Assembly (NCBI RefSeq): GCF_030409875.1
Contig: NZ_JAUFQR010000001.1
Location: 1,550,001-1,614,000 of the forward strand
Length of the DNA stretch: 64,000 nt
Direction: 5' to 3'
Origin: Chryseobacterium tructae
Lineage (GTDB): Bacteria > Bacteroidota > Bacteroidia > Flavobacteriales > Weeksellaceae
Shown here: positions 17,475-27,212 of the stretch, in pieces
Numbering within the stretch: the stretch's first letter is position 1
How the letters are laid out: the number at the start of each line of letters is the position of its first letter
The notes under the pieces: model-generated
Databases searched by the model: none
The model's input: the letters and a program-made list of their open reading frames with translations, nothing else
What the model was told of the DNA's origin: nothing
Program-made: the position numbers and the translations under genes

Positions 17475-17675
17475 ATGAAAACCAAGAAAACAAAATTTGA
17501 GAAATTTTCAAAACTTCCTAACTTAAACAAGGATCTATTGAATAAAGTGAAAGGAGGTGTAGCGGCAATCGAAGAATCTGCAGAGATTACAATATCTAAT
17601 AAGTGTGGCCATTTCTATACAATCAGTGGAGAGTGTAGAGCAGACGGTAGCAGCTGCTGGCCTTGGCCTTTTTAA
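17475..17675 (+). CDS. Double-glycine-leader RiPP precursor (lanthipeptide type)
   Basis: This is a 66-residue peptide. Residues 1-28 form a charged helical leader ending in the cleavage-type motif KGG (LNKVKGG). The core of about 38 residues has three Cys, several Ser/Thr, and a tryptophan-rich end (SSCWPWPF). A LanM-type synthetase gene lies 158 bp downstream on the same strand, so this is its probable substrate. The leader would be removed by a C39 peptidase-transporter, but none is present in the window. An alternative is a disulphide-linked bacteriocin. A long hairpin follows the stop codon. Confidence 0.75.
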   Translation: MKTKKTKFEKFSKLPNLNKDLLNKVKGGVAAIEESAEITISNKCGHFYTISGECRADGSSCWPWPF

Positions 17676-17692
17676 TTATCAGGCATAATTAA

Positions 17693-17731
17693 CAAAGGGC
17701 TATTCTCTAATTTATTGAGAATAGCCCTTTG
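17693..17731 (+). terminator. 15-bp hairpin between lanthipeptide precursor and LanM
   Basis: A perfect 15-bp inverted repeat (CAAAGGGCTATTCTC / reverse complement) has a 9-nt loop and lies 18 bp after the precursor stop. No good T-tract follows, so it is more likely a partial terminator or mRNA-stabilising hairpin. Either would raise precursor mRNA above LanM mRNA. Confidence 0.6.
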
Positions 17732-17833
17732 CTATTATAGGCCGTTAGTCATCAGAAATTACAATTAAAAAATCATCGTAGCTTTTTCAAATATCAGATA
17801 AACTTTTAAAAGTTTTCACTTATTATCACCTAT

Positions 17834-20596
17834 ATGGAATATAATTCACTTTTCATCGTAAAAAAAAGAAACCTTATTACAAATAAGAATTATAAAAAGA
17901 CCTTGTTTTTAAATTTATTTTCAGATTGGTTAGAAGATGCTCAACAAAAAATCTTAATTGCAGACGGTTTTATATCTGAAAAAGCGATAACATTTTCTTT
18001 TAATTCCCTATACGATACCATCATCGAAATATCAGAAAGGGCGCTAGTTGTTGAGTATAGAGTCTTTGAAGAAGAGATCAATAAAGAACCCAGCGAAGAA
18101 AAATTAGTTGAATTTGAAAAAGAGCTTTTATCAGTAGAGTACAGAAAATATTTACTCGATGAATATCCGGAACTTTTTAGATTGGTTTTCGAAAATATTA
18201 ACTATTTCGTTGAGAATCTTAATGACATTATTTCTAACTATATAAAAGATTTTGAAGAGATTAAACAAATGTTTAATATCAAAAACTCTGATATTGAATA
18301 TATAAGAATCGGGCTCGGAGACAATCATAATAAAAATAAAAGTACCAGTTTATTAAAAATAAATAACGAGTCTCCCATCATATTTAAACCGAGAGACTTA
18401 GCCCTTGAAGTATGCTTTTCTAATTTTCTTACCTATTATAATAATTCTTGTGGTACCAATATCTATTTACCTAAGACTTTATACAGAAAAAAATATTCAT
18501 GGACAGAATTTATTAAGTCGTCCAATCAGGAAGCCCAAAAAGCTTATTTATTCGAAGAAATAGGACATACAATTTGTATTCTGTACTTCCTTAATGGTAC
18601 AGATTTTCATTACGAAAATATAATTGTCAATGATACAGAAGGGTTGGTGCTTATAGATTGTGAATCTCTTTTATATCCTATTGTTAATATTCGAAGAAAT
18701 GAGCACAATGTGCTTTCTATAGGGCTTTTGCCTAAAAAGATTAAAGTTGGAAATCAACAGGTGGATTTTAGTGGGCTAAATCTCAATGCGGATATCACCC
18801 AAGACTCTCCAATAGAAAGAGAAGCTATTAGTATTGAAAATGGAGAAATAACCGCAGTTGAAGGGAAAAATATATTGGTTAAACCCAATAATTTTCAACT
18901 TGATAATCAGGAAAATGTCAATGATTATATTGATGAAATATTAGCCGGGTTTAAAAAATCATATCTTTTCTTAATGGAGAATAAGGATGAGTTGATGACA
19001 TTTTTTGATACAGATTCTTCCGATTATCCTATACGTTTCTTACTCCGAAATACCTATCTCTATTCCCATGTATTGTATGAGTCTTTATCACCTATTCTAC
19101 TAACGGATCAGGAAGATAGAATTTCATTTATGCAACAATTGGAAGAACCTTATTTTGGATTTAATAATTTATTAGATTCGGAGGTCGCAGATTTATATAA
19201 TAATGATATTCCTTATTATTATTGTAATGCGAAATCAACGACTCTGGAAAACACCAGTGGATTAAGCCAGAATCAATTTTTTGAAAAAAGCCCGTTAGAT
19301 GCTCTCCATTACAAATTGAATAACAAGATTTCAAAAAGAGATTTAGAGCAGCAGTTATTATTAATCAGATACAGTTTTGCTCAAAATACTTCTCAGAATT
19401 CTACTAAAATATTTCCCAAAGCATATGTTTCGGAGAATATCAACTTAATATATGATCATTTCAAAAATTTAGTAGGCGAGAGCAGTACTTACTTTACCCT
19501 TCAGGAATCTTATAAAGAAGCCAATCAGTATAATTTAGAATATACGCATCGCGATTTAATTAATGGTATGTTTGGAGACATCCTATTCTTAGCCGAAGCC
19601 AATAAAATATTCAAAAATTCTTATATAAGTGAAACGATATCCCGTCTATACAAAGATAATGTTCAACAATTACGCAGTTCTGAATATATAGGAATGGCCG
19701 GAATGGGCGGGGCAATATATTTTTTGTCAAGAATGTATAGGATATATAATGACGACCAATATATCAATGAGGCCCTACAATGTATTGAATCTCCTGATTT
19801 AATAAGCAATATTGAAAAATCTCAAAACAACGGAGTTATTTATGGGAGAGCAGGTTTATTAATTGCGTTAATAGAGCTTAAAAAGATAAGTGACAACTCA
19901 ACGGTAGACCAATTAATACATCTTACTTACAATCAGATGATCTCTTCTGCTGTTGTAACACCGGAAGGGATACACTGGCTTTCAGAATTCCATCATCAGC
20001 CATTGTGTGGAGTAGCCCATGGATCGTCTGGTATTATTTTGTCACTTTTAAGATACTTTAAATTATTTGAAGATGCAGAATGTAAAAATATCATTCAACA
20101 GGCTGTATTGTTTGAAAATACCTTTTACAGTGCAAAACATAATAATTGGTCAGACAACAGAAGTTTCGTTTCAAAAGAATTGCAATATTCTACTTTTGGA
20201 TGGTCACATGGTAGTCCTGGGATAGGATTGATTCGCTTGGAATTAATTGAATCCAATATATTTCAATCCGATGACTTTTTAGATACTCTGAAAACCGACT
20301 TGCAAAACTGTGTTGAATCTACTTATAAAAATGGTTTCAAAGGAAGTGACTCACTGATTTTCGGAAAATTCGGAAATTCTGAACTTCTCGTTCGTTTTTC
20401 AAATCATATTAATGATCCCCAGTTATTAGGCGAAATAGAAAGTCATCTCAATTCATTTAACAGTTTATCTTTTATTAAAAATAATAGGGGACTTATCATT
20501 CCGGGGCTTTTCAATGGCGTTTCCGGATATGGATATCAGTTACTGTTTTTTAATAAAGAGATCAAGAATTCTATACTTACATTTGAATGTAATTAA
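17834..20596 (+). CDS. lanM: LanM-type lanthipeptide synthetase with degenerate cyclase zinc site
   Basis: This 920-residue protein is a class II lanthipeptide synthetase. The N-terminal kinase-like dehydratase keeps its key residues: Lys in IIFKPRD, Asp/His/Asn in GTDFHYENI, and Asp/Glu in LIDCESL. The C-terminal half is LanC-like (NGMFGDILFLAEA, GVAHGSSGI, WSHGSPGIG). The three zinc ligands are all replaced: Ser for Cys in the usual W-C-H-G motif (GWSHGSPG), and Ile-Phe for the Cys-His pair in the usual S-L-C-H-G motif (DSLIFGKFG). The dehydratase should phosphorylate and eliminate Ser/Thr. Zinc-dependent thioether closure looks impossible. The likely substrate is the peptide at 17475. A terminator shared with the convergent gene follows. 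Confidence 0.85.
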   Translation: MEYNSLFIVKKRNLITNKNYKKTLFLNLFSDWLEDAQQKILIADGFISEKAITFSFNSLYDTIIEISERALVVEYRVFEEEINKEPSEEKLVEFEKELLSVEYRKYLLDEYPELFRLVFENINYFVENLNDIISNYIKDFEEIKQMFNIKNSDIEYIRIGLGDNHNKNKSTSLLKINNESPIIFKPRDLALEVCFSNFLTYYNNSCGTNIYLPKTLYRKKYSWTEFIKSSNQEAQKAYLFEEIGHTICILYFLNGTDFHYENIIVNDTEGLVLIDCESLLYPIVNIRRNEHNVLSIGLLPKKIKVGNQQVDFSGLNLNADITQDSPIEREAISIENGEITAVEGKNILVKPNNFQLDNQENVNDYIDEILAGFKKSYLFLMENKDELMTFFDTDSSDYPIRFLLRNTYLYSHVLYESLSPILLTDQEDRISFMQQLEEPYFGFNNLLDSEVADLYNNDIPYYYCNAKSTTLENTSGLSQNQFFEKSPLDALHYKLNNKISKRDLEQQLLLIRYSFAQNTSQNSTKIFPKAYVSENINLIYDHFKNLVGESSTYFTLQESYKEANQYNLEYTHRDLINGMFGDILFLAEANKIFKNSYISETISRLYKDNVQQLRSSEYIGMAGMGGAIYFLSRMYRIYNDDQYINEALQCIESPDLISNIEKSQNNGVIYGRAGLLIALIELKKISDNSTVDQLIHLTYNQMISSAVVTPEGIHWLSEFHHQPLCGVAHGSSGIILSLLRYFKLFEDAECKNIIQQAVLFENTFYSAKHNNWSDNRSFVSKELQYSTFGWSHGSPGIGLIRLELIESNIFQSDDFLDTLKTDLQNCVESTYKNGFKGSDSLIFGKFGNSELLVRFSNHINDPQLLGEIESHLNSFNSLSFIKNNRGLIIPGLFNGVSGYGYQLLFFNKEIKNSILTFECN

Positions 20597-21854: not shown

Positions 21855-21987
21855 AAAAAAATATTTTTTTTTCTAAGATAAGTATAAAAATATTTTTTCT
21901 ATTCATTTTTTTTATATATTTACCAAACTAACCACATGAGCGTGAAATACTCAAAAAAATAAAGGTTATATATTCATGTTTTGTACT

Positions 21988-22018
21988 TTTGGCTTAATTT
22001 GTTGAATAATTACTTTTG
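21988..22018 (+). promoter_or_regulatory. Bacteroidota-type promoter for the graspetide precursor operon
   Basis: TTTG (21988-21991), a 19-nt spacer and TACTTTTG (22011-22018) match the TTTG-N19-TAnnTTTG consensus exactly. The implied transcript start is about 75 nt before the first precursor ATG (22099), the first gene of the rightward cluster. Confidence 0.65.
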
Positions 22019-22098: not shown

Positions 22099-22290
22099 AT
22101 GAAAAAAACTAACAAAAATTCTAAAAAGATTGATTTAAACTCTTTAAAAGTAATCAACAAAGAAAATCTTAATTCAATACACGGAGGAGGTAGAGAATTA
22201 TCCTTAGAGCAGTCTGCATGGTCTTCTCTTGTAAGTGATAATGACAATACTGATACTTTTTCCTCTCTATTCTCAGATATTGAAAAATAA
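22099..22290 (+). CDS. gwsA: Grasp-with-spasm (graspetide-type) precursor peptide 1
   Basis: This is a 63-residue peptide. The leader (residues 1-30) is Lys-rich with the family pattern KIDLxxLKVI and ends in HGG. The core holds two octamers, SSLVSDND and SSLFSDIE, each with Ser followed four residues later by Asp. It has no Cys, so ester rather than thioether chemistry is expected. It is the first of six tandem paralogues and lies 81 bp downstream of a strong promoter. The core-octamer reading is my inference from aligning the six peptides by eye. Confidence 0.8.
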   Translation: MKKTNKNSKKIDLNSLKVINKENLNSIHGGGRELSLEQSAWSSLVSDNDNTDTFSSLFSDIEK

Positions 22291-22310
22291 AAATTAATTT
22301 ATTCCAAAAA

Positions 22311-22351
22311 AATAATAATTCTTGGGGAAATAAGATCCAAGAGTCATTATT
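22311..22351 (+). other. Hairpin in the spacer between precursors 1 and 2
   Basis: An imperfect 15-bp inverted repeat (arms 22311-22325 and 22337-22351) has an 11-nt loop. No T-tract follows. It may act as a processing or stability element rather than a terminator. Confidence 0.4.
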
Positions 22352-22456
22352 CCCTGAAAAAATATTCTCTTTACTCATGAATAATTGAGTAGGTAGGGAT
22401 TCTCATCTTTTTTTCAGATATAATTAACCATGTAAACAGTTTTAAAAATCTTAAAT

Positions 22457-22645
22457 ATGAAAAAGAAATCCATCAAAACAATGAACCTTGATACGCTAAA
22501 GGTAATTGATCAAAACAAATTAAAAACGCTTCATGGAGGAGCTATTAATATTGAAGATACTATGGCCCCTTCAGCCTTTACATCACTTTTTGATGATACA
22601 GACAAAGGTTCTTTCTCCTCTTTATTCTCAGATATTGAGAACTAA
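22457..22645 (+). CDS. gwsA: Grasp-with-spasm precursor peptide 2
   Basis: This is a 62-residue peptide. The leader has MNLDTLKVIDQNKL and ends LHGG at residue 28. Its two core octamers are TSLFDDTD and SSLFSDIE, separated by KGSF. The core is nearly identical to that of precursor 3, which indicates recent duplication. The first octamer starts with Thr. A 166-bp spacer containing a hairpin separates it from precursor 1. It should be a substrate of the ATP-grasp ligase at 23657. Confidence 0.8.
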   Translation: MKKKSIKTMNLDTLKVIDQNKLKTLHGGAINIEDTMAPSAFTSLFDDTDKGSFSSLFSDIEN

Positions 22646-22786
22646 TTAATCATCATCAGCCTATTACAAAGAAAAGAAATTAATACCTAGAAGTAACCTC
22701 CTTGTTATTTTTAGTAGAGAAGTATTGTAGGATTTTATCTTTTCCCAGTGATAATGATATAACAAAATTTTAAAATTTTAATTACT

Positions 22787-22975
22787 ATGAAAAAAAACGT
22801 GAACAAAACAATGAACCTTAGTACTTTGAAGGTAATTGATCAAAAGAAATTAGCAACACTTCATGGAGGACTTCAGCAAATGGAAGACTCTTTGGCTCCT
22901 GCAGCCTTTACATCACTTTTTGATGATACAGATAAAGGTTCTTTTTCTTCCCTATTTTCAGACATTGACAAATAA
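22787..22975 (+). CDS. gwsA: Grasp-with-spasm precursor peptide 3
   Basis: This is a 62-residue peptide closely similar to precursor 2. The leader ends LHGG, followed by LQQMEDSLAP and the core octamers TSLFDDTD and SSLFSDID. The LQQMEE/D segment after the GG also occurs in precursors 5 and 6, so it is probably a follower of the leader rather than ring-forming. The spacer from precursor 2 is 141 bp, whereas the remaining precursors are packed within 10-18 bp, which suggests one transcript. Confidence 0.8.
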   Translation: MKKNVNKTMNLSTLKVIDQKKLATLHGGLQQMEDSLAPAAFTSLFDDTDKGSFSSLFSDIDK

Positions 22976-22985
22976 ATGACATATT

Positions 22986-23177
22986 ATGAAAAAGAAAGAA
23001 GTAAAAAAAATAGATCTTAAGTCTCTAAAAGTCATTGACAAGAAGAGCTTAATTACAGTTCTTGGGGGAGCAAGCGCTCCTGACGAGTCATTGGCTCCTG
23101 AAAAATTCTCTTCTTTATTCTCAGATATTGAACATGACGGAGGATTTTCATCTCTTTTCAGTGATAATGATGTATAA
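22986..23177 (+). CDS. gwsA: Grasp-with-spasm precursor peptide 4
   Basis: This is a 63-residue peptide. The leader is KKIDLKSLKVIDKKSL and ends VLGG, where the others have HGG. The two core octamers SSLFSDIE and SSLFSDND are separated by HDGGF. It is spaced 10 bp from precursor 3. It lacks the LQQMEE segment and has SAPDESLAPE instead. Confidence 0.8.
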   Translation: MKKKEVKKIDLKSLKVIDKKSLITVLGGASAPDESLAPEKFSSLFSDIEHDGGFSSLFSDNDV

Positions 23178-23195
23178 CATTATAAAATCTTAATT

Positions 23196-23378
23196 ATGAA
23201 AAAAAATGCTAAAAAAATAAACCTTAGTGCATTAAAGGTTATTGATCAAAAAGAAATGGCTACCCTGCATGGGGGTCTTCAACAAATGGAAGAAGTTGCA
23301 GATATTGGATTAACTTCGGTAGCATATGATTATGACAAAGGATCATTATGTTCTGTATTTAAAGATATTGACTTTTAA
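23196..23378 (+). CDS. gwsA: Grasp-with-spasm precursor peptide 5 (divergent core)
   Basis: This is a 60-residue peptide. The leader is like the others (INLSALKVIDQKEM, LHGG) and is followed by LQQMEE. The core diverges: octamers TSVAYDYD and CSVFKDID keep the Ser at position 2, Asp at 6 and acidic residue at 8, but the hydrophobic SLF is changed. A Cys appears at position 1 of the second octamer. This may give a different ring or thioester chemistry. Confidence 0.78.
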   Translation: MKKNAKKINLSALKVIDQKEMATLHGGLQQMEEVADIGLTSVAYDYDKGSLCSVFKDIDF

Positions 23379-23390
23379 AATTAAACTGAT

Positions 23391-23582
23391 ATGAAAAAAG
23401 AAATGAAAAAGATTGATTTATCTAAAATGAAGGTAATCAACAAAAATCAGATGGCCAAAGCACATGGCGGACTTCAACAAATGGAAGAATCTTTTGACAT
23501 TACAATGTGTTCATGGGATCACGACATAGACAAAAAAGGAGAGCAAACTTTGTGCTCACTTGTTGCTGATTTCGATAACTAA
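23391..23582 (+). CDS. gwsA: Grasp-with-spasm precursor peptide 6 (divergent, Cys-containing core)
   Basis: This is a 63-residue peptide. The leader is KKIDLSKMKVINKNQM, ending AHGG, followed by LQQMEE. The core octamers CSWDHDID and CSLVADFD both start with Cys. They still fit [STC]-S-x-x-x-D-x-[DE]. A strong terminator-like hairpin follows before the ligase gene. Together with precursor 5 it forms a variant subgroup, possibly a different end product processed by the same enzymes. Confidence 0.78.
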   Translation: MKKEMKKIDLSKMKVINKNQMAKAHGGLQQMEESFDITMCSWDHDIDKKGEQTLCSLVADFDN

Positions 23583-23600
23583 ATATAAATGCACATAGCA

Positions 23601-23643
23601 AAAAAATAAAATACAGGATCTGATCTTGTATTTTATTTTTTTA
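23601..23643 (+). terminator. Intra-operon terminator between precursors and ligase
   Basis: A 20-bp stem (arms 23601-23620 and 23622-23641, one G-U-type mismatch) is followed by T-rich sequence only 15 bp before the ATP-grasp start. It should stop most transcripts after the precursors, giving a high precursor-to-enzyme ratio. Confidence 0.75.
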
Positions 23644-25882: not shown

Positions 25883-26229
25883 GTATTATTGTAATGGAAT
25901 TTCTTTAGGAGTTAATTTCATGGTGATTATAACAGGTTTATTATCAGCTTATTATACTGATGTCATATCTGTGTGGGATCTGTTTTTTTTGTTTTGTTCC
26001 TGCAATATTACATTTTTGATATAATATTATTAAAACAACAAACTATTCAGAGTAAATGGGTTTTATAGGTAGAGAGCAAAAATAGTGTTCCCTACTTTAT
26101 TTCCGATTCGGTTTGACTGCTGGGGGCTTTGATAGTGGAACTATTTGGAATGGGTGTTGTTATATAAGAGATCAGTACAAGACAAGAAAATTGAATAGCT
26201 TAATTTCCGTTAAACAAAAAAAGAATATT
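25883..26229. other. Intergenic region upstream of the quinone reductase gene
   Basis: No convincing gene is seen. An in-frame extension of the reductase frame back to 26113 has no family similarity and is unlikely to be translated. No clear promoter pair was found. Confidence 0.35.
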
Positions 26230-27212
26230 ATGAAAGCATTGCAACTAATATCTTATGGCGATCTTAATGATAGCCTTGCTTTTAATGAAACTGCCAAGCC
26301 TGAGATACTGCCCAATGATGTACTTATTGAAGTATATGCAGCTTCTGTAAATCCAATTGATAAATTATTTATTATCGGAAACTTAAAAAATTCCCAGCCT
26401 TTGGATCTGCCGGCAATGATTGGTTTTGATGTCAGCGGAGTCGTTGTTGACAAAGGCAGTGAAGCTAATGAATTTGAAATTGGGGATGAGGTCTACTCCC
26501 GGGTAGCACAGCGGCGTTTTGGAACAATTGCGGAATATATTGCTGTTGACAGTGGTATAGTCGCAGACAAACCAACTAATATTACGTTTGAGGAAGCCGC
26601 CAGCCTTCCGCTCATTGCTCTTACTTCGATTCAGTCTTTAGAACGGGTGGGTATAAAGGAAGGCGACAAAGTTCTGATCCACGCGGGATCAGGTGGTGTG
26701 GGCAGTTTGCCATCCAATTTGCCAAGACTAGGGGTGCGTATGTCTATACAACAACCAGTACTGAAAATCTGGACTGGGTAAAAGAACTTGGTGCGGATCG
26801 TGTTATTGATTATAAGACAGAGGATTATAGAACCATTGCAACCGATCTCGACATTGTTTTTGATACTTTGGGAAGAAATTACACGGAGGAAGCCTTTGAG
26901 GTCATAAAAAAGGGAGGAAGAGTAGTCAGTATTGTGGGGCCAATGGACGAAGAAACAGCAGAGCATTTTGGGATTCCCAATTATAAGCTTCCGGCTAATC
27001 TTTCGCAGGCGATTGAAAATAAAGATGCTACCTATAAGATGGTGATCATGAAGCCTGACGGAGGGCAGTTGGCCTGGCTTAAAATAGCGGTGGAAGAGGG
27101 GATGATAAAGCCGGTTGTTGATACTGTATATCCTTTTTCAGAGAGTATTAAGGCTTTTGAACATTTGGCTTCTGGCAGATCAAAGGGGAAAATAGTCATC
27201 AAAGTAAAATAA
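26230..27212 (+). pseudogene. Zinc-independent MDR-type NAD(P)H:quinone oxidoreductase (one frameshift)
   Basis: The frame from ATG 26230 encodes a medium-chain reductase N-terminus (ASVNPIDKL, GFDVSGVV, GDEVYSR, HAGSGGVGS) and then loses homology, stopping at 26781. Adding one T to the run 26706-26708 gives GSFAIQFAKTRGAYVYTTTS. The frame then runs through WVKELGADRVIDYK and FDTLGRNYTEEAFEV to the stop at 27212 (about 327 residues). The cofactor loop (GSGGVGSFA) and nucleotide-binding fold are then complete. It would reduce quinones or enones with NADPH. Zinc-ligand cysteines are absent, as usual for quinone reductase-type members. Confidence 0.8.

Follow-up and report, generated by a model that had tools for sequence, protein, structure and literature searches.

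What do six small tandem genes of Chryseobacterium tructae encode, and how could their product be made by a set of enzymes in which one member has lost cysteines that most of its relatives keep? The genes lie in the window analysed here, a 64,000-nt stretch of the genome (NCBI RefSeq assembly GCF_030409875.1, contig NZ_JAUFQR010000001.1, positions 1,550,001 to 1,614,000 of the forward strand; positions below are those of the window unless a locus is named), and are followed by genes for an ATP-grasp ligase, a small LPL-type protein and a SPASM-like partner. The reading that we favour, and hold to be fairly probable, is that the locus makes multicore graspetides, with the ligase, the LPL protein and the partner, as a scaffold devoid of the conserved cysteines, together installing nested rings on peptides that would leave the cell through a C39 transporter.

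A first-pass annotation made from the letters alone had placed six precursors at 22099-23582 and had ascribed to them twelve octamers of the pattern [STC]-S-x-x-x-D-x-[DE], with Ser2, Asp6 and an acidic residue at position 8 invariant. All six open reading frames (ORFs) were confirmed and the pattern fits 12/12 octamers, including the Cys found at position 1 in three of the four octamers of precursors 5 and 6. The architecture is the same in 6/6 precursors: a leader with a conserved [LM]KVI and a double-glycine (GG) end, a linker, and two octamers. Among 403 ORFs of at least 30 amino acids, taken from six frames over the whole window, the pattern is confined to the six precursors, two in each, and it appeared at most three times in any of 5000 shuffled versions of their core regions (observed, 12). 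Within the window octamers Ser2 is encoded by four different TCN codons, and the linker between octamers ranges from 4 to 7 residues.

The nearest locus among the matches listed, in Chryseobacterium sp. c4a (locus L037), carries counterparts of all six precursors, and their twelve octamers match those of the window residue for residue. Comparison of the two revealed 12 synonymous and no nonsynonymous codon differences in the octamers (96 codons), 13 and 2 in the linkers (109 codons), and 7 and 6 in the leaders (168 codons); judging from these counts, purifying selection acts on the octamers. Searching about 5.8 billion proteins with a precursor profile, at E values up to 10, returned eight proteins, namely the six window/c4a types and P0007 and P0008 (Epilithonimonas hominis), the latter two each with a first octamer TSL.. 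and a second CSL... In the resulting set of 16 octamers, six begin with Ser, five with Thr and five with Cys, and position 8 is D/E in 16/16. Considering the Cys in P0008, which is probably on the same contig as its ligase, octamers opening with Cys are not confined to the genus; the Cys variant that had been proposed is thus real and recurrent (5/16 octamers, one in another genus), and it may form the thioester suggested with it. When 173 genomes of the genus were searched with the precursor profile, two (the window's and c4a) had six matches each, and a further 11 gave a single weak match, lying in the leader region. The locus is real, conserved and functional-looking.

Assignment to the graspetides, also made in the first pass, is well supported by the ligase gene just downstream, whose product has a predicted graspetide-synthetase fold and all nine residues that are invariant in 74/74 aligned ligases. 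For such comparisons we chose by hand 60 locus stretches from the matches listed (56 of them from other genomes and four from the genome of the window) and added 18 further relative loci, leaving aside two flanks of the window's own (L179, L180); trees were built with FastTree and midpoint-rooted. The ligase scores 224.3-224.7 bits against TIGR04192, its best-scoring family, yet under the cut-off of 230, and fails the MvdC (108.8 bits, cut-off 425) and MvdD (84.2 bits, cut-off 475) models. Its structure model (predicted local distance difference test score, pLDDT, 91) best matches MdnC (5ig9) at a template modelling (TM) score of about 0.77, followed by PruB, AMdnB, CdnC (7mgv) and PsnB. Among the matches listed, the closest ATP-grasp relatives share 71-74% identity, with E. 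hominis among their sources; the next five share 49-52%, one of them named Sphingobacterium, and the rest share at most 47%. Further searches gave best identities of at most 42% outside the window's genome, both in an order sample of 395 genomes (query P0015) and in a class sample of 395 genomes (query P0016), at most 42% in 23 genomes of one other genus (query P0015), and no match at 1e-45 in 13 genomes of one other family (query P0033). A plasmid location of the locus was considered and rejected, the best plasmid match to the ATP-grasp being just 37%. The window's genome also carries two further grasp-with-spasm ligases above the family cut-off and three remoter ATP-grasps below it (the five lie at G000:C1 4313916, 1907460, 1397247, 1398202 and 514655).

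In the partner, the predicted fold is a domain that recognises ribosomally synthesised and post-translationally modified peptides (RiPPs) atop a radical S-adenosylmethionine (SAM)-like barrel without the cluster motif. Four alignment columns that are Cys in 56/60 aligned partners (CxxCEFR, then C and C) read I, S, gap and D in the window partner. The remaining exceptions among the 60 are the c4a and L053 partners, likewise without the four, and that of L071, a fragment. Cys302 of the window partner falls in a column with weaker conservation (43/60 Cys), and the related pattern C..C.[FY][RK] is absent from 5/63 partners and present in 4/4 additional ones. CxxxCxxC itself was found in 0/60 partners, the window's included, and at least three Cys in the stretch equivalent to residues 100-124 in 0/54; with neither this motif nor the conserved SPASM cysteines present, radical SAM chemistry at Cys was rejected. 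Since the conserved cysteines were lost and the pathway was kept, the partner must have a role other than an iron-sulphur (Fe-S) one, most likely leader recognition, and the window branch therefore separates two possible partner roles, Fe-S chemistry and another such as this. Partner-type genes are common more widely, with matches in 110/296 genomes at 1e-12 in a family-wide search; with the L170 partner as query, 7/395 genomes of the class sample matched at 1e-22, and the four loci fetched keep the cysteines. Another SPASM-like gene without the conserved cysteines was seen at L164 4357-5301 (genome of L102); its neighbours, by eye, resemble ketosynthase, glycosyltransferase and methyltransferase genes, and the closest ATP-grasp gene is some 4.4 kb away.

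Two related loci with other cores, L053 and L170, bear on the ring register. The two L170 precursors (one read from an internal Met as start) have cores of five perfect S-x-x-x-D-x hexads each (10/10), and the two L053 precursors have three S-x-x-x-D each. With cores trimmed manually to begin after GG, donor-acceptor pairs spaced i to i+4 were seen 18 times in these four cores against 6.2 expected (z 5.9). In the eight cores of the octamer clade, which are paralogs and not independent, z was 4.0 for i+4, 3.8 for i+7 and 2.9 for i+6. S-x-x-x-D is common to the octamer clade, L053 and L170, so that the shared element is Ser2-Asp6, which both supports and sharpens the fixed register proposed in the first pass; we infer one Ser2-Asp6 macrolactone per octamer and, more broadly, S-x-x-x-D repeats supply a simple ring rule. 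Positions 1 and 8 appear from the alignments to be an addition of the octamer clade, conserved there alone, and with moderate confidence we read them as an outer ring around Ser2-Asp6. With Cys as the donor, that ring may be closed by a natural thioester, and the natural exchange of Ser, Thr and Cys at this one position bears directly on natural thioester graspetides; the thioesters from graspetide ligases named in the accessible portions of the literature (PMC12291112 among the sources) are non-native or substitution products. At the same time, i to i+4 makes a weak rule for grasp-with-spasm cores at large (z 2.4 for D/E, 1.7 for D alone): across 23 canonical cores, hand-picked from candidate precursor ORFs as one per family as judged, i+3 and i+9 reach a similar strength.

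In the mechanism that we propose, the [LM]KVI and GG leaders of the six two-core precursors would be bound by the recognition domain of the partner, which, its cluster cysteines gone, would act as a scaffold offering the core to the ligase. The ligase would activate core Asp side chains as acyl phosphates, as is established for graspetide synthetases (PMC13097080, accessible text), and would join Ser2 to Asp6 in every octamer; position 1 (Ser, Thr or Cys) would probably be joined to the acid at position 8 afterwards, through a thioester where it is Cys, so that the rings would form a nested hairpin and a peptide could hold as many as four of them. The LPL protein may bridge or activate the ligase, after which a C39 transporter-peptidase encoded elsewhere would cleave at GG and export the product. 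ATP-binding cassette (ABC) transporters of the C39 type adjoin the genes in L053 and L170, and in the window's genome C39 matches comprise two long ORFs with strong scores, a third, weak match across a stop, and one short ORF.

The LPL family was named by Makarova et al. (2022), who proposed that it may help the SPASM protein or touch the ligase (PMC8939145). The motif PLYFRFM in the window protein resembles PFFARFL, the part of the leader by which, according to the same source, microviridin ligases are activated (PMC8939145); proline occurs in 0/6 of the window leaders, which hence have no PFFARFL. By analogy, and going a step beyond a remark that Makarova et al. made (PMC8939145), the LPL protein may be a detached leader helix. 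A loose P-h pattern matched in 59/78 ATP-grasp/SPASM gene pairs, with probably spurious ORFs among the 59. PLxxR as a general LPL feature was rejected, being present in 6/59 (window, c4a, L053, L170, L172 and L099), of which the L099 case is a spurious-looking ORF of 29 amino acids and the L172 partner retains its cysteines.

The locus shares with the grasp-with-spasm type (TIGR04192/TIGR04193), or branch 5 with LPL proteins as defined by Makarova et al. (2022), the order precursor(s), ATP-grasp, small LPL and SPASM-like gene (PMC8939145, accessible text). It also shares GG leaders without the Phh motif and a home in the Bacteroidota. It differs in the partner, which lacks the four conserved cysteines, and in the double-octamer core, which was found in 0/5051 small ORFs of 90 other loci (a single match occurs in 11/5051), and both maturases fall just under the curated cut-offs, that for the partner being 175 bits. 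By sequence, the locus is best placed as a divergent branch within this type that fails its strict models. A possible equivalent is group 14 of the RODEO surveys, whose accessible portions report co-occurrence with a SPASM protein.

Chryseoviridin of Chryseobacterium gregarium (CdnC) is reportedly a multicore graspetide too, whose short macrolactones, five or six residues in size, link Ser/Thr to Asp, and CdnC is among the fold matches of the window ligase; it is said to end in a microviridin-like core and to have no SPASM-like or LPL partner, unlike the window locus. A chryseoviridin (microviridin) type was rejected here, the leaders lacking PFFARFL and the ligase being of the wrong family. 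The plesiocin core motif is reportedly TTxxxxEE, which is not present in the window cores; the predicted rings would also differ in size (i+4 inside i+7), and PsnB is just a fold relative of the window ligase (14-16% identity). Plesiocin and thuringinin do have tandem repeats with two esters per repeat, in plesiocin as a ring-within-ring hairpin (PMC13097080, PMC12291112), and microviridin and chryseoviridin precursors form one cluster (PMC8939145), as far as the accessible texts go. A precedent for the partner is offered by rosaritide (MirB/MirC), whose ligase needs MirC, a partner with a weakly RiPP recognition element (RRE)-like N-domain; MirC is chaperone- or peptidyl-prolyl isomerase-like, whereas the window partner is radical-SAM/SPASM-like without cluster cysteines (PMC13097080, accessible text). 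A literature search on the term 'grasp-with-spasm' returned nothing, the accessible literature yielded no described product of this type and leaves the role of the SPASM protein unsettled, and the titles and abstracts searched, which do not extend to the supplementary tables of earlier surveys, held no description of the octamer core.

Several observations weigh against the favoured reading, and some of them feed its rivals. The octamers are for the most part recent paralogs rather than independent cases, and in L053 and L170 the i+7 spacing is depleted (1 seen, 5.6 expected), which leaves the outer ring without independent support. Each octamer might therefore hold a single Ser2-Asp6 macrolactone, with positions 1 and 8 serving docking or product function and Cys either free or forming a disulphide, for example within precursor 6, where the two Cys are in the same register. 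This is a tentative alternative: S-x-x-x-D is indeed the only enriched short spacing in common with L053 and L170, but the constraint on both outer positions holds through all 16 octamers, and with one Cys each in precursor 5, P0007 and P0008 no internal disulphide is possible there. The i+6 enrichment in the octamer clade, moreover, is compatible with 2-to-8 or crossed 1-6/2-8 pairing; a crossed register, or links between both octamers of a peptide, would find a parallel in the interlocked rings of microviridins and rosaritide (PMC13097080, accessible text), but the variable linker argues against fixed inter-octamer links and L053 and L170 retain S-x-x-x-D alone, making such registers unlikely.

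Other adverse points concern the partner and export. In Foldseek the RRE finds a weak match (6jx3, E 0.15), and radical SAM structures match the partner at TM scores of 0.28-0.39 only. By pairwise score the window partner is closest to the cysteine-bearing L161 and L162 (32-33%), not to L164, L053 or L170; the L170 partner matches one cysteine-bearing partner at 33% and does not match the window's at the 1e-22 limit; the node joining these lineages has a support of 0.738 and one intervening ligase node 0.404. Cysteine loss may thus have happened more than once. The window genes also lack an adjacent C39 transporter. A partner so divergent could be thought to retain some chemistry, for example at Cys, or to be decaying in a system that does not work, or has stopped working, as a graspetide pathway; its intact ORF, 96% identical in c4a, a similar cysteine loss in three other loci (two with the LPL gene beside), and the selection on the octamers make this very unlikely. 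It is less credible still that the peptides are unmodified double-glycine bacteriocins or export substrates with metal- or calcium-binding repeats: GG leaders and acid-rich repeats would suit such products, and P0008 nearly reaches the cut-off of a bacteriocin signal model (15.6 vs 15.7 bits), but a graspetide synthetase adjoins the genes in the window and c4a, and probably accompanies P0008, and an invariant Ser2 is not known as a usual calcium-binding signature. Multicore graspetides with nested rings thus remain our preferred product. A bolder form of this proposal, a three-part machine in which a dead radical-SAM/SPASM scaffold with a leader-holding RRE and the LPL protein, standing in for the ligase-activating helix found within the leaders of other graspetides, yield nested rings and the first genetically encoded graspetide thioester, is doubtful as a whole.

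Table 1. Genes and candidate expression signals of the octamer locus.
Feature	Position	Strand	Details
Candidate promoter	21984..22018	+	two TAnnTTTG boxes 5' of precursor 1, starts 21984 and 22011
Precursor 1, 63 aa	22099..22290	+	leader to GG at 22188; octamers SSLVSDND 22222-22245, SSLFSDIE 22261-22284
Precursor 2, 62 aa	22457..22645	+	octamers TSLFDDTD 22580-22603, SSLFSDIE 22616-22639
Precursor 3, 62 aa	22787..22975	+	octamers TSLFDDTD 22910-22933, SSLFSDID 22946-22969
Precursor 4, 63 aa	22986..23177	+	octamers SSLFSDIE 23109-23132, SSLFSDND 23148-23171
Precursor 5, 60 aa	23196..23378	+	octamers TSVAYDYD 23313-23336, CSVFKDID 23349-23372
Precursor 6, 63 aa	23391..23582	+	octamers CSWDHDID 23508-23531, CSLVADFD 23553-23576; Cys at position 1 in both
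Hairpin, then T-rich sequence	23600..23642	+	between precursor 6 and ATP-grasp gene; -17.8 kcal/mol, z -6.9
ATP-grasp ligase, 317 aa	23657..24610	+	predicted graspetide synthetase; TIGR04192 best family; fold match MdnC
Small LPL-type protein, 75 aa	24597..24824	+	motif LPLYFRFMF; between ATP-grasp and SPASM-like genes
SPASM-like partner, 333 aa	24808..25809	+	predicted N-terminal RRE and radical-SAM-like barrel; TIGR04193 142.4 bits

Possible expression signals accompany the genes. None of 200 shuffles was as stable as the hairpin, which could possibly be a partial terminator keeping the precursors in excess. The TAnnTTTG boxes resemble the Bacteroidota -7 consensus. Long gaps precede precursors 2 and 3, not 4 to 6, which may point to separate promoters.

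Beyond the locus, a class II lanthipeptide pair lies at 17475-20596, with a LanM (TIGR03897, 519 bits) and a GG-type precursor just upstream, and the c4a graspetide genes likewise adjoin a LanM (L037 236-2998). At 26113-27212 two adjacent ORFs in different frames encode an alcohol dehydrogenase in two parts (ADH_N, then ADH_zinc_N_2), so that the gene looks broken, near the point where ORF resemblance to c4a ends. Among other grasp-with-spasm loci, L104 has, 75-703 bases upstream of its ATP-grasp gene, three candidate precursors in tandem whose repeats are of the GAD(S/Q)D(A/S)DG type, and L097 has, 79-265 bases upstream of its own, an odd precursor candidate in which a run of 16 Ser is followed by FTSDSDSDSDSDSDAD.
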